In this document: positions 7,236 to 12,272 of the stretch, in pieces
Position numbering within the stretch: position 1 is the first letter of the stretch
Layout of the letters: each line of letters starts with the position of its first letter
Source of the DNA: Fibrobacter sp.
Lineage (GTDB): Bacteria > Fibrobacterota > Fibrobacteria > Fibrobacterales > Fibrobacteraceae
DNA length: 41,679 nt
Assembly: GCA_024398965.1 (NCBI GenBank)
Contig: JAKSIF010000023.1
Span: 1-41,679 of the forward strand
Direction: 5' to 3'
Program-made: the position numbers and the translations under genes
The notes under the pieces: model-generated
Told to the model about the DNA's origin: nothing
Seen by the model: the letters and a program-made list of their open reading frames with translations, nothing else
Databases searched by the model: none

Positions 7236-7771
7236 ATGAAGCTTCTTTTTTTCAAGTCTATTTTAGCAGTGGCAATTTGCATCACCATAAACTGCTGCAG
7301 TTCCACCAAAACGACAAACGATCAAAAGACCGATTCCGCGCCCAAGGCGCAACCAACGTCAAGTGGATCTGGACAACCAACGCCGGCAGCAGCGCTGGTG
7401 CCACCCTCACCGGATCCTACCCCGGCGACGACTATGTGGACTACACATCCATAGACGGCTACAACTGGGGAACCGCACAGAGCTGGTCCCATTGGCAGTC
7501 CTTCTCCGAAGTTTTCAAGCCCGCCTACGACGCACTTTCCGCTTACGACAAGCCCATGTTCCTGGCAGAATTTTCTTGCACCGAACACGGCGGCAGCAAG
7601 GCCGAATGGTTCAAAAACATGTTCGAAGTCCTGCCCACGGAATTCCCGAAAATCAAGGGTCTCGTCATCTTTAGCCAAAGCAAGAGCTACGAAGCCGACT
7701 GGGGCGTAGACACCTCCAACGAAGCCCTGGAAGCATGGAAAGCGGGCATCGCAAAATTCCCCTCTAAATAA
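7236..7771 (+). pseudogene. remnant of a GH26 beta-mannanase lipoprotein gene
   Basis: Two overlapping frames show a broken gene. The ATG at 7236 opens a lipoprotein signal peptide ending in INCC, then a polar linker. This frame drifts into Pro/Thr-rich nonsense and stops at 7454. From about 7322 another frame encodes the C-terminal half of a GH26 catalytic domain: DRFRAQGATNVKWIW, then PGDDYVDYTSIDGYNWG, then KPMFLAEFSCTEHGGSKAEW, where the Glu of LAEF matches the family's nucleophile, to a stop at 7771. The upstream half of the domain, with the HEMN-type acid/base motif, is missing. A deletion joining the leader to the C-terminal part out of frame explains this best. The product cannot be an active mannanase. 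A GH26 gene would suit a plant-cell-wall degrader. Confidence 0.8.
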
Positions 7772-7834: not shown

Positions 7835-8920
7835 CTATTCGTAGTCCTTTACACAGCGAACAGACAGTCTTCTATTTTCATCATCTTCACAGACATAAGC
7901 AACACCTGCAGAACTGTCGCCAAATTCAACACTTGTGGCACAATCATTATTCAGTACATTCCTTGTAGAAGTCCAATATTCCCGCCCCCAGCCTTTTGCT
8001 GAGAACTTGACATAGGCATCATAGCCGTAGCCGACAGACTCCTTCCATTCATCAGAAGTCGGCAAATGCCAACCGTTGCGACAAACTTGCAACGCTTCTT
8101 CAAGAGTATAAAGGCGGCCATACTTTTCGCAATAGGTGGAGTCGTCATTGTAGCACCAGCGCTTAAGATGAGCAGAATCAGTCAAGGAGACCTGTACATC
8201 CAAATTAAAATTTGTCCATACGAGACCATTAAGTTCAACGGTATCAGCATACGTTAAAGGTTCCTTGATTTCAACCAGATCACTAAAGTCCGGCGTGGGA
8301 CCTGTTACTGAAGGACGAACATCAAAATAAAGATAAGTCTCAGCGGTATCCACTAAATCCACCGTGATTACATTCACTGAGATCACATTCTCCGGAAAAG
8401 TCTGCATAGGCTGACGTTCCTCAGCAACTGTTTCGTCGGAGATTGTATCAAGAACCTTCGGATTCTCAATAAAACGTACTTCAAACACTTGATTTTCAAA
8501 CTTTGCAAACTTCGCACCGATAAAACGTTCATCCACGTCAAAATAATGATCGCTAACGCAGGAGCAATTCGTCGCAGCAAAGTCTTTCGAAAAATCATAG
8601 GAAATCACCAGTGTATCGCCTGCCATTTTTGTAATTACGGGAGCGTAAACGGCGCAATAGTCCATAACGGCGGGCAACATGATTTCGTAACTTCCATTAT
8701 TAGGATAAATCACAGCCGGAGCGGTGGTGTCAAAAGACACCGTCTTATACAGAACGATTTCATCCCCCAGGCCAGCCAAACAGGCCCCCATTTTCACCTG
8801 ACCATAATCCGACACCACCAAATCAGCGTCCTCCAACGAAACGGAATTATCAGAAGAACATGCGGCAACTAAAGCAGCAGTAACCAATGCTGCAAAATGA
8901 GCTAATGAATTCTTATTCAT
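7835..8920 (-). CDS. lipoprotein: CxCVSDHYF-type domain plus C-terminal FISUMP domain
   Basis: A 361-residue predicted lipoprotein. The start is the ATG at 8920, behind AGGAG; a longer frame to 8998 lacks this. The signal peptide ends at ALVAAC. Residues around 37-170 hold a domain with MGAC, YEIMLPAVMDYC and CSCVSDHYFDVD. The same pattern occurs in the C-terminal part of the lipoprotein at 10998-12272. The last 130 residues are a FISUMP domain: RWCYNDDSTYCEKYGRLYTL, CRNGWHLPTSDEW, YWTST and LSVRCVKD. It is divergent from the TIGR02147 regulator gene, and its promoter carries a copy of a 13-bp repeat. The shared domain suggests the three lipoproteins of this locus belong to one system. Function is unknown. 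Confidence 0.85.
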   Translation of the reverse strand: MNKNSLAHFAALVTAALVAACSSDNSVSLEDADLVVSDYGQVKMGACLAGLGDEIVLYKTVSFDTTAPAVIYPNNGSYEIMLPAVMDYCAVYAPVITKMAGDTLVISYDFSKDFAATNCSCVSDHYFDVDERFIGAKFAKFENQVFEVRFIENPKVLDTISDETVAEERQPMQTFPENVISVNVITVDLVDTAETYLYFDVRPSVTGPTPDFSDLVEIKEPLTYADTVELNGLVWTNFNLDVQVSLTDSAHLKRWCYNDDSTYCEKYGRLYTLEEALQVCRNGWHLPTSDEWKESVGYGYDAYVKFSAKGWGREYWTSTRNVLNNDCATSVEFGDSSAGVAYVCEDDENRRLSVRCVKDYE

Positions 8921-8975
8921 AAATGGGTCTCCTAACCATATTTTGACCGTGAATCCGGCCAAGTTCTCTGACAAC

Positions 8976-9004
8976 AATATAATCTCGTTTTGTTTCATTT
9001 ACAA
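8976..9004 (-). promoter_or_regulatory. candidate promoter for the leftward FISUMP lipoprotein gene
   Basis: On the - strand TTGTAA (9004-8999), a 17-nt spacer and TATATT (8981-8976) form a good primary-sigma promoter about 55 nt before the ATG at 8920. The spacer contains one copy of the 13-bp repeat TTTTGTTTCATTT (as read on +), so a protein bound there would block RNA polymerase. Confidence 0.5.
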
Positions 9005-9093
9005 GACATTTTGTTTCATTTAGATAAACTTCATTTTCCACAACATACTAAAAAACTCAAATTTTTTAAATTTTTAGCAATTTTGTATCATCT
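8988..9093 (+). promoter_or_regulatory. three direct copies of a 13-bp operator-like repeat
   Basis: TTTTGTTTCATTT occurs at 8988-9000 and 9009-9021 (21 bp apart, two helical turns). A copy with two changes, TTTTGTATCATCT, lies at 9081-9093. All three are in the divergent region between the FISUMP lipoprotein and the TIGR02147 regulator. Copy one lies between the -35 and -10 of the leftward promoter; copy three ends five bases before the -35 of the rightward promoter. The regulator encoded next door is the obvious candidate ligand (inference). Confidence 0.5.
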
Positions 9094-9097
9094 CAAT

Positions 9098-9125
9098 TTG
9101 ATTATCGCAAAAAAATGCTTATATT
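9098..9125 (+). promoter_or_regulatory. candidate promoter for the TIGR02147 regulator operon
   Basis: TTGATT (9098-9103), a 16-nt spacer and TATATT (9120-9125) lie about 28 bp before the ATG at 9153. The surrounding DNA is very AT-rich. Confidence 0.45.
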
Positions 9126-9152
9126 ATAACTGAAGAAAACGAGAATCTACCA

Positions 9153-9968
9153 ATGAAACCGATTATCGAATATCAGGATTACCGCCGCTACATGCAGGAC
9201 TTCTACGAAGAACGCAAGAAGAAGTCCGCCTTTACCTGGCGCGAGTTTTCAAAGATCGCCGGCTTTTCATCCCCATCCTACCTCAAGCTGGTTTGCGATG
9301 GTAAAAGCTCCTTGAGTCGCGTCGGCCTCCCCCGCGTCGCAAACGCCTTGGGATTAACCGGGTTCGAGTACGATTATTTCGAACTGCTGGTGGAATTCGG
9401 TAACGTTAAGGACGATGAAAAGAAAAAGGCAATCTTTGCAGAAATGAACCGCATTGCCAAAGAGCATAAGGTCCGCGTTTTGGAGGCAGACACCTTCGTC
9501 TACTACGAATCCTCTGTAAATTCAATCGTCCGCGAATTAGCCCCCCTTATGCCCGGCGCATTACCTAATGAGATTGCAAAAAAGATTAAGCATGACTACT
9601 CGGCCCAACAAGTTAGAGACGCGTTGTCGTTGTTGACCAAATTAGGTCTACTGCAGGAATCTGGAGAAAACGCCTACCAACAAACAGACAAGGCTCTCAC
9701 CAGTTCCAGCGAGGCAATTCCTTTAGCCGTAAGGAGCATGCATCGTGAGATGGCCGACCTGGCAAAGGAATCCCTAGACAAGGTCGATGTGAGTGAGCGA
9801 AATATTTCCGGTGTTACAATGGGGGTTGACGCCGAAACGCTCACGCGCATTATGGAGGAGGTAGACATTTGCCGCAAGCGCATTATCACCTTGGCAAATG
9901 AATGCAAAAGCATCGACCGGGTATACCGTTTAAATCTACAGCTGTTCCCGCTGACAGAAAAGGTTTAG
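9153..9968 (+). CDS. TIGR02147-family protein (putative transcriptional regulator)
   Basis: A 271-residue cytoplasmic protein of the TIGR02147 family, known as a paralogous family in Fibrobacter succinogenes. The N-terminus has the family pattern YQDYRRYMQDFYEERKK, followed by a helix-turn-helix-like stretch around residues 30-65 (TWREFSKIAGFSSPSYLKLV, then GKSSLSRVGLPRVANALGL) and YFELLVEFG. The middle contains a winged-helix-like stretch (VRDALSLLTKLGLLQE, residues about 150-165), and the C-terminal third is helical with an EEVDICRKRIITLA segment. DNA binding is inferred from these features and the family, not shown. The start codon lacks a strong ribosome-binding site. Two lipoprotein genes follow 9 and then 36 nt downstream, so the three form an operon divergent from a FISUMP lipoprotein. 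Repeats in the shared promoter region suggest it controls both directions. Confidence 0.85.
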   Translation: MKPIIEYQDYRRYMQDFYEERKKKSAFTWREFSKIAGFSSPSYLKLVCDGKSSLSRVGLPRVANALGLTGFEYDYFELLVEFGNVKDDEKKKAIFAEMNRIAKEHKVRVLEADTFVYYESSVNSIVRELAPLMPGALPNEIAKKIKHDYSAQQVRDALSLLTKLGLLQESGENAYQQTDKALTSSSEAIPLAVRSMHREMADLAKESLDKVDVSERNISGVTMGVDAETLTRIMEEVDICRKRIITLANECKSIDRVYRLNLQLFPLTEKV

Positions 9969-9977
9969 GAGAGTTAT

Positions 9978-10961
9978 ATGAAGAGTTCAAAGATCCATAC
10001 ACAGATTGCAACGTACTTCGCTTTTGTCGCAGCACTCCTTTACAGTGCCTGCTCTACAGATGTTGCAGGCACCGACGAGCAGACCAACAATGTTGCAGAC
10101 AACCCAACATCCATCGACACTTGCTCCACAGTCGTTCCCAGGGACACTTCCGAAGTTTCATCCAGTTCCTCTAGTATTGATCAGCCATACAGTTCTTCCA
10201 GCAGCACCATTATTCCTATAATCACGGAACAGTTCAACGTCATCATCGTCAACAGAGACACTATCTACGTAAGTTCAACACACAAGGGCGACATCATCAT
10301 CGACACCGTTTCTACAGGAGCCCCCGTAATCATCCAACCCAGCGAAACACCATTTGATTCATCGGCAGCAGATGACCCCGGCAGTAAAGGAACAGTCGAT
10401 GACGAGCCAACCATCACTGACCCGATTATAGATGTTCCAGACACAAATATTTCCGTTTCCACCGGCGTAATTGACAGTCTTCTCTGCATAATAATGAAGA
10501 CAGACACTCTCGGAACGGAAATTGTCGGCGCTCCAGAAGAAAACCCGATTTCAATACAATTCTACACATCCCAAGGTGCACTAAGTTACAAAAGCGACAA
10601 CAACACACAATCCATCCACTGCGACAGATACAACGGAGAACGCCTCTACTATGATGTAGCCTACTATGGTGGTAAAATTGCCGACAGGGAATTCACATCC
10701 AACGACAGCACCGACATCCGTGAATTCGCTAGCCAGTGTAAAAGTACACAACAATTATACAAGACCGTAATTAGCACTGGCGATATTCCAAGCTACACGA
10801 CAACCCAGTGCGAAGAAGAAATAATCTATGCCTCAGTTCTTGAAAATGGAGACCTCGACCATAACGTCAATCTTTCCTACGTTGACAGTGCATGGCCTGA
10901 ATATGCCGAGAAAATCATCAACTTCTGCACAACAGGTCCAATTCAGGCAATTGCCTACTAG
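9978..10961 (+). CDS. lipoprotein of the TIGR02147 operon
   Basis: A 327-residue predicted lipoprotein. The signal peptide ends at LLYSAC (Cys25). A Ser/Thr/Asp-rich, probably unstructured region with SSSSS blocks covers residues 26-160. The C-terminal 165 residues form a folded-looking domain with scattered cysteines (SLLCIIM, SIHCDRY, FASQCK, TTQCEEE, INFCTTGP). Its end, SYVDSAWPEYAEKIINFCTTGPI, resembles the middle of the next protein (YYADPNWKKYGSAVVNICKGEPI; each quoted only as a landmark), so the two are related. AGGAG precedes the start. I do not recognise the domain. Cell-envelope location is inferred from the signal. Confidence 0.8.
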   Translation: MKSSKIHTQIATYFAFVAALLYSACSTDVAGTDEQTNNVADNPTSIDTCSTVVPRDTSEVSSSSSSIDQPYSSSSSTIIPIITEQFNVIIVNRDTIYVSSTHKGDIIIDTVSTGAPVIIQPSETPFDSSAADDPGSKGTVDDEPTITDPIIDVPDTNISVSTGVIDSLLCIIMKTDTLGTEIVGAPEENPISIQFYTSQGALSYKSDNNTQSIHCDRYNGERLYYDVAYYGGKIADREFTSNDSTDIREFASQCKSTQQLYKTVISTGDIPSYTTTQCEEEIIYASVLENGDLDHNVNLSYVDSAWPEYAEKIINFCTTGPIQAIAY

Positions 10962-10997
10962 CAAATAAATTTTTTCCAAAGGATTATGGAGGTAACC

Positions 10998-12272
10998 ATG
11001 AAAAAGACAATCAAGGCTCTGCTTTGTGGAGCATCTACACTGGCAATATTTGCCTGCTCTGAAGCGGATTCCAATTCTACCGCTCCGGAAGCATCTCGAG
11101 CACAGATAACCACCGACTCAACAGCAAAGGATTCATCAGTAGTCAACCCAGATGCAAGCAACCAGGACAATCTTCCGCAAAACGTTCCAAGCACAGAAAT
11201 TCCAGACGAATCGGACCAATGCCTAACTCGTCCTGATACTGTTAGCGTAGAGCAAGCCGAAGCTTACAAAAAAGAATTCATAGAATCCGTCTTAAAAAGC
11301 GATCGAGTAGACAACGCTGTAGAAATAGACTGTTTCCTTACTCCAGATGATTTTGAAAGAATGGAGCCCTGCGGCCAATCAAGGTATTCCTTGTTAAAAG
11401 GAGACCTCATTCATCTCTGGTTAGGCGAAACAAATACTGTTCGCTGCGAAAGCGATTCCGTTGATCTTATCCGATACGAGATTTCCGTTCCTTACGAATT
11501 CCAGATGTTTGATACAACAGGTCATTTCATCAAGAAACAACTCACGACGAGTAACGAGCAGATTATCGCTGCTTTTGAAACCGACTGCGAAATCGAAGGC
11601 GGAACCAATTCTCTAGAGGAAAACGGGACCCACCTCTGCTCAATCGAGCCTACCGTAAACCCTGATTTCCCAAACTCAATTTACTACGCCGATCCCAACT
11701 GGAAAAAATATGGAAGTGCGGTCGTTAACATTTGTAAGGGCGAACCCATAGATATCAATCCTAGCGCAGTTCCGCCTATCGACTTTGACGATCAAGATCG
11801 CAGGCATCCCAATCAAATCAGGATGGGCGAATGCAAGGCTGAAGATTTCATAGTTCGTTCCGCTTTAGCAAAAGAGGCCGCCACAGAATCCCCCAAGGCA
11901 AAAATCATCACAGATGATGAAGGTAATCATGAAATCATGATCCCCGACGTCAGCGACTACTGCAGTATTGATGTAGGTCTCGTTAGGGAATTGGTTGGCG
12001 AAATACTGTACATCAGATACGACAAGGAATGCAAGGAACACGAAGCACACTTCAATTCCACCGGAAACGAAGGCTGCGACGAAAACGGTTGCATCTTAAT
12101 AGCTCCCACTTACAAACAATTTGACGAAACCTGCTCTCCAGCCGTCGTTTCAAAATGCGTATGCGTCAGCGACCACTATTTCCCTGTTGATTCCGACTAT
12201 TTACGCACAGCAAAATACGTCATTTTCAATGACGTCACCTACCCCATCGAAAATCCTATACAACCTTATTAA
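10998..12272 (+). CDS. two-domain lipoprotein of the TIGR02147 operon
   Basis: A 424-residue predicted lipoprotein. The ATG at 10998 follows GGAGGT; an earlier in-frame ATG at 10986 overlaps that site and is less likely. The signal peptide ends at LAIFAC. After a short Ser/Asp-rich linker, residues about 70-255 resemble the folded domain of the preceding lipoprotein and end in VVNICKGEPID. Residues about 270-424 resemble the first domain of the divergent lipoprotein (7835-8920): RMGECKAEDF, HEIMIPDVSDYCS, and VCVSDHYFPVDSDY, with VIFNDVTYPIENP matching VRFIENP there. The protein thus joins the two lipoprotein types found on either side of the regulator. It ends the operon and is followed by a terminator. 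Function is unknown. Confidence 0.82.
   Translation: MKKTIKALLCGASTLAIFACSEADSNSTAPEASRAQITTDSTAKDSSVVNPDASNQDNLPQNVPSTEIPDESDQCLTRPDTVSVEQAEAYKKEFIESVLKSDRVDNAVEIDCFLTPDDFERMEPCGQSRYSLLKGDLIHLWLGETNTVRCESDSVDLIRYEISVPYEFQMFDTTGHFIKKQLTTSNEQIIAAFETDCEIEGGTNSLEENGTHLCSIEPTVNPDFPNSIYYADPNWKKYGSAVVNICKGEPIDINPSAVPPIDFDDQDRRHPNQIRMGECKAEDFIVRSALAKEAATESPKAKIITDDEGNHEIMIPDVSDYCSIDVGLVRELVGEILYIRYDKECKEHEAHFNSTGNEGCDENGCILIAPTYKQFDETCSPAVVSKCVCVSDHYFPVDSDYLRTAKYVIFNDVTYPIENPIQPY

Follow-up and report, generated by a model that had tools for sequence, protein, structure and literature searches.

Transcription regulators of the XRE type often bind sites that overlap their own promoters. The lambda-repressor-like proteins of this type (HigA, P22 c2, 434, C proteins, SinR) resemble, in their N-terminal helix-turn-helix (HTH) fold and in operator-like sites at the own promoter, the members of TIGR02147 (Fsuc_second)/DUF4423, a family annotated only as paralogous and of unknown function. 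Unlike them, TIGR02147 proteins have a predicted second, winged domain and a DUF4423 segment, and their putative sites are mostly asymmetric one-way direct repeats instead of short palindromes. We analyzed a TIGR02147 gene and its neighbors in a 41,679-nt stretch of Fibrobacter sp. DNA (contig C23), called the window here; coordinates are those of the whole stretch, and the genome (G000) has 3.59 Mb in 151 contigs. Other labels denote loci read (L), contigs (C) and genomes (G). The real unit is a TIGR02147 gene with the directly following gene of a tagged lipoprotein, a paralogous two-gene cassette of which this genome has about 24. The names TIGR02147 and FISUMP (TIGR02145, a lipoprotein family) are known as family names; the cassette and its operator-like sites are in no description found. 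No paper on the function of TIGR02147 was found in the literature searched, and neither family name was found in any paper. A DUF4423 protein of Bdellovibrio is mentioned in one study (PMC12546842), and the 2011 genome paper on Fibrobacter succinogenes S85 left the regulation of the cellulase genes unanswered, with few regulators near them (PMC3079729).

The genome has 24 matches to TIGR02147, one of them merely a C-terminal piece. Genes were called with a simple custom script and lipoproteins by a regular expression for the lipobox. The flanks of the other 23 TIGR02147 genes nearly all show a same-strand lipoprotein gene next, at a gap of -14 to +65 nt; L040:15666 has a lipoprotein directly in front instead, and L038:11080 is without a downstream partner. 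Under a strict automatic rule (next gene on the same strand, lipobox, gap ≤70 nt) the next gene passed for 17/21 TIGR02147 genes, compared with 12/244 other genes in the same DNA, and by inspection it nearly always does. Background neighbor counts were drawn from about 360 kb of flanking DNA. These counts, together with the subfamily-specific conserved repeats in promoters described below, support the proposal of the initial annotation that TIGR02147 proteins may act locally in regulating lineage-specific surface lipoproteins. The enrichment that it predicted beside TIGR02147 genes in other genomes was found for lipoproteins in general and not for FISUMP genes.

The cassette extends across the phylum. 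TIGR02147 is present in 141/151 Fibrobacterota genomes, and a single genome can have as many as 58 matches. Among 111 phylum loci, which count one gene twice (L002 = L031), a downstream lipobox protein was found by the rule in 97 and a tagged lipoprotein partner in about 105. The latter figure omits L040:15666 from the 97, as its downstream lipobox protein, a solute-binding protein, lacks the tag, and adds nine tagged lipoproteins whose cysteine is preceded by an unusual residue. L089 has its tagged lipoprotein 300 nt downstream, and L092 ends at a contig edge. All of these counts rest on related sequences and hence are not independent events. TIGR02147 gave no match on plasmids, and a single-protein scan gave Fibrobacter matches only.

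The partner lipoproteins have very different bodies and share a short N-terminal tag at the lipidated cysteine, with a pattern of about C-x(2-8)-[AS]G-[GT]-x-[TS]-[DE]-[TE]-x-N-x-[IV]. A tag model of 42 positions, built mostly from this genome, found 19 places here at E≤5e-8. All adjoin TIGR02147 genes, including C1:44410, which was outside the building set. Weaker matches comprise the orphan C5:160887 (E 2e-4), the weak partner C30:9920 and others that nearly all cover the signal-peptide half only. Since training and test overlap in this genome, the model was applied to four other genomes. There 22/22 matches at E<1e-3 have a TIGR02147 gene no more than 300 bp away; 21 are downstream of it and one is divergent. 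A second model built from distant families found the tag in 8/8 genomes bearing TIGR02147 and in 0/10 genomes without it, most of these genomes being paired within the same families. In 30 orthologs of the window partner GTDEQ is kept almost without exception while its codons vary, with all four glycine codons in use, indicating selection on the protein level. The sole clear orphan tag (C5:160887-160982) belongs to a 739-codon open reading frame that encodes FISUMP domains and an N-terminus of the partner type, on a contig with no TIGR02147 match. In genera g18 and g22 (G032, G036, G038, G041, G053, G056, G064 and others; 2.0-2.9 Mb) neither a TIGR02147 gene nor a tagged lipoprotein was found.

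Behind the tag, CarboxypepD_reg domains occur in 18/32 partner bodies, and LamG, CBM4_9, pectate lyase, LRR and FISUMP domains also occur. AF2 modeling of L031, a widespread partner, gives a disordered tag (pLDDT<50, residues 23-45) that links the lipid anchor to Ig/CnaB-like sandwiches. This predicted body resembles Gram-positive CnaB-type surface adhesins and pilins, although the sandwich fold is very common and the partner is lipid-anchored in a Gram-negative. A proteome study reported several 'carboxypeptidase regulatory-like' lipoproteins that are lower on cellulose (PMC6851124); these may be tagged partners.

Upstream regions were grouped by regulator similarity and scanned for conserved repeats. 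TGTATCA was found in 30/30 promoters of the window group but in 3% of shuffles, and 85/87 TGT[AT][TC]CA sites of this group point the same way. Three promoters show recognizable sites at the two outer positions only, 92-93 bp apart. The last site adjoins a conserved TTGAC...TATATT promoter and lies between 45 and 169 bp from the ATG, although the spacing between sites is fixed (21; 71-72 bp). In L112-L115, L121-L123, L125 and L130, CCTAAxACCTAA-like repeats are inserted between promoter and ATG of the window ortholog, making the leader about 40-100 nt longer with operator spacing unchanged.

Other subfamilies have sites of their own. The GTGTTC subfamily has its site in 36/37 promoters compared with 5% in shuffles, and all 118 sites are in one orientation, while another subfamily carries a pair of TGTGGAC-like sites separated by 23-24 bp. 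TGTATCA recurs in 5/5 promoters of a group that belongs to another genus and whose recognition helix is similar (SPVFLKLV against SPSYLKLV). Paralog L034 has a different site, TTGTAGTATA, twice, 71 bp apart. The 71-bp spacing was considered as a universal feature and rejected, being found in the window group and this one paralog and not generally across subfamilies. The exact 11-mer TTTTGTATCAT has three copies in the 3.59 Mb: in the window promoter, in the C50 promoter of another TIGR02147 gene and ahead of a FISUMP lipoprotein gene on C7. The C7 copy (C7:108974; L147:4975-5030) is part of a perfect inverted repeat that surrounds the -35 of that gene (L147:5030-7168), CTTTTGTATCA-N17-TGATACAAAAG, and that matches the operator half-site of the window group. 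At L133 and L135 two cassettes of different subfamilies stand back to back, with one common 258-bp intergenic region that contains operator-like sites.

The window regulator is a full-length TIGR02147 member (303.1 bits over positions 1-271 of 272; curated cut-off 50), and DUF4423 is matched by all 23 TIGR02147 members of this genome that were aligned. An AF2 model (pLDDT 85.9; pTM 0.55, with relative domain placement unreliable) predicts an XRE-like HTH domain, a winged helix and a C-terminal DUF4423 segment. The predicted HTH domain aligns with HigA at Z 8.9 over 75 residues (rmsd 2.5), and Foldseek gave a probability of 0.97-1.00 for several XRE-like structures. Residues 111-180 look like the winged helix of MarR/GntR-type regulators, although the Foldseek matches to such structures are weak (E≥0.05); residues 110-267 match 4g6q (Z 8.6, rmsd 5.7). 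For a C-terminal TPR array of the RRNPP type, the model shows strands at 167-177 and no long helical array, with moderate confidence in the C-terminal part. A HigBA-type toxin-antitoxin pair was rejected, as a small cytoplasmic toxin would be expected and the neighbor is an exported-type lipoprotein of 327 aa with a lipobox. At L146:4644-5261 (- strand, contig C6) a GNAT acetyltransferase continues in frame into the C-terminal ~56 residues of a DUF4423/TIGR02147 protein, either a natural domain fusion or a recombination scar.

Given the predicted fold and the conserved repeated sites in the promoters, each TIGR02147 protein is most likely a local autoregulator that governs the lipoprotein gene of its own cassette. 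Such a protein would be a one-component DNA-binding transcription regulator, and we infer that it binds the repeats. It would control mainly its own promoter and thereby set the level of the closely linked, presumably co-transcribed tagged lipoprotein, a putative surface protein in which the family-wide tag precedes a variable adhesin- or carbohydrate-binding-type body. In some cases nearby or unlinked lipoprotein genes may be set as well. In the window the regulator would sit on the direct repeats at 8988, 9009 and 9081, which are spaced about whole helix turns and end at the -35. Binding there would set expression of 9153-12272 and probably also of the divergent FISUMP lipoprotein. Whether it represses or activates is a guess that leans slightly to repression, since in related promoters the -35 stands between inverted copies; a site just upstream of the -35, as in the window group, would also suit an activator.

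Several observations weigh against this autoregulator model. No tagged lipoprotein adjoins the regulator at L038:11080, L088 and L100. Across 48 subfamilies most promoters have no recognizable repeat, and several close paralogs lack TGTATCA. The link between site and regulator rests on position and on the recurrence of a similar site where the recognition helix is similar. Owing to the shared descent of orthologous promoters, the shuffles overstate significance. Furthermore, no Pfam HTH model matches the window regulator, and HTH_31 matches 1/23 members (E 0.009). This failure of the Pfam models may explain why TIGR02147 proteins are not listed as regulators. With these points weighed, it is probable that TIGR02147 proteins are one-component regulators of their own promoter and the linked tagged lipoprotein, with the window sites as operators. 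A very large Fibrobacterota family of unknown function would thus gain a testable role. Regulator family, readable candidate site, fixed partner and shared tag together make the control of surface proteins directly testable. Some cassettes (G000 C4:22510-60728, L032, L034, L045, L049) are located within or next to xylanase, pectin and esterase clusters that bear CBM6. CBM6 was found in 10/96 cassette neighbors, a count dominated by one large cluster.

The tag may have a purpose unrelated to the regulator. It could be an envelope signal, for surface display or for a common outer-membrane partner, in which case the cassette would be an operon duplicated as a unit. We give this explanation a substantial chance, somewhat below even; it concerns the tag alone and is compatible with autoregulation. 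In its favor, the tag is uniform across divergent partners without co-variation with the regulator, and the bodies are adhesin-like. However, the other lipoproteins of this genome, most FISUMP ones included, are without the tag, and the weaker tag-model matches, confined nearly always to the signal-peptide half, also speak against it.

Export-coupled feedback is unlikely. The regulator would read the tag in the cytoplasmic precursor of the lipoprotein, poor export or lipidation would change transcription, and the coupling of the genes would co-locate both products. This would account for a tag that is predicted to be disordered yet is kept by selection on the protein, that stands almost only beside TIGR02147 and is absent where TIGR02147 is absent, and for regulator and lipoprotein genes that overlap or nearly so. 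Conversely, the tag sits in the exported part of the lipoprotein, and tag distance does not track regulator distance. A Mantel test over 22 paralogous pairs gave r 0.13 (p 0.13), and r 0.16 (p 0.09) for the C-terminal part, which gives no support for pair-specific recognition or co-evolution of tag and regulator.

The initial annotation had seen the unit in the regulator and the FISUMP lipoprotein, two large paralogous families acting together, which now appears quite unlikely. FISUMP genes are not enriched at positions next to TIGR02147 genes (3/42 vs 16/463 for other genes), and two of the three are the tagged partner itself with a FISUMP domain. On these counts FISUMP was rejected as a general partner. 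Most window orthologs have no upstream FISUMP gene, and among the loci read it stands divergent in the window, L110, L148 and L149 only. FISUMP domains do occur in the divergent neighbor, in two partners and in the orphan tag protein, but most FISUMP lipoproteins are without the tag. In the window the distal site pair (sites 1 and 2) overlaps a possible FISUMP promoter, and therefore this gene may be controlled too. Because one of the three exact TTTTGTATCAT sites, the one on C7, lies in a FISUMP promoter, occasional control of FISUMP genes by TIGR02147 proteins is plausible from these sequences. Improbable, too, is a further reading in which the tag is a docking signal recognized by the cytoplasmic TIGR02147 regulator ahead of export; each of dozens of paralogous pairs would then report on production or export of its own surface lipoprotein, amounting to a phylum-wide, export-coupled control of surface proteins.

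The features of the locus are collected in Table 1.

Table 1. Features of the regulator-lipoprotein locus in the window
Feature	Position	Strand	Basis
FISUMP-domain lipoprotein, divergent, lineage-specific neighbor, possibly co-regulated	7835-8920	-	TIGR02145 66.9 bits, PF09603 46.5 bits; lipobox ALVAAC-SSD
Possible sigma-70-like FISUMP promoter TTGTAA-17-TATATT, overlapping distal repeats	8976-9004	-	9/12 consensus match only
Operator-like site 1, TTTTGTTTCAT	8988-8998	+	TGTWTCA-type site kept in most of 30 orthologs
Operator-like site 2, TTTTGTTTCAT, 21 bp from site 1	9009-9019	+	spacing 21 in 25/25 orthologs keeping both
Operator-like site 3, TTTTGTATCAT, 72 bp from site 2, adjoining -35	9081-9091	+	spacing 71 or 72 in 27/27 orthologs keeping both
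Predicted regulator-operon promoter TTGATT-16-TATATT	9098-9125	+	TATTGAC...TATATT kept in orthologs
TIGR02147/DUF4423 regulator, 271 aa	9153-9968	+	TIGR02147 303.1 bits; DUF4423 98 bits
Predicted XRE-like HTH domain, regulator residues 8-90	9174-9422	+	AF2 pLDDT about 95; HigA Z 8.9, P22 c2 Z 8.3
Predicted winged-helix domain, regulator residues 111-180	9483-9692	+	helices, then strands 167-171, 174-177 (AF2)
Partner lipoprotein, 327 aa, second gene of cassette	9978-10961	+	lipobox LYSAC; orthologs behind orthologous regulators
Conserved N-terminal tag of partner lipoprotein, CSTDVAGTDEQTNNVAD	10050-10100	+	just after lipidated Cys; tag model E 6.8e-12
Second operon lipoprotein, without tag	10998-12272	+	lipobox start; second lipoprotein follows in most orthologs

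The gene layout was largely as first described. The regulator, which the initial annotation had named as a TIGR02147 protein with helix-turn-helix-like segments, far exceeds the family cut-off and has an XRE-like HTH in its predicted structure. The divergent FISUMP lipoprotein at its flank was confirmed (66.9 bits; TIGR02145 cut-off 41.65), as were the two same-strand lipoprotein genes on the other side, which follow at gaps of 9 nt (regulator to first lipoprotein) and 36 nt (first to second). The gene ranges hold overall, except for two starts that were moved to fit the lipobox. The start of the FISUMP gene becomes 8920 in place of 8998, from which the gene would extend into the operator repeats; that of the second lipoprotein gene becomes 10998 in place of 10986.

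Domains had been described as shared by the lipoproteins on both sides. This is true of the FISUMP lipoprotein and the second downstream lipoprotein, which have a common region of ~115 aa (29% identity, E 8e-13), but not of the FISUMP protein and the first downstream lipoprotein, which have no common domain (best E 0.03, signal peptide only). The first and second downstream lipoproteins have only a weak common stretch (E 7e-4), and TIGR02145 matches neither at E≤1. Likewise, the four genes form one unit in the closest genomes only, the four loci with a divergent FISUMP gene; other orthologs have other upstream neighbors. The pair of regulator and first lipoprotein is near-universal in orthologous loci, and the second lipoprotein is next in most. 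Beside the FISUMP gene, window positions 7277-7771 hold a fragment of a family 26 glycoside hydrolase without its N-terminal part (weak PF02156 match, profile 193-251), which is probably a decayed gene.

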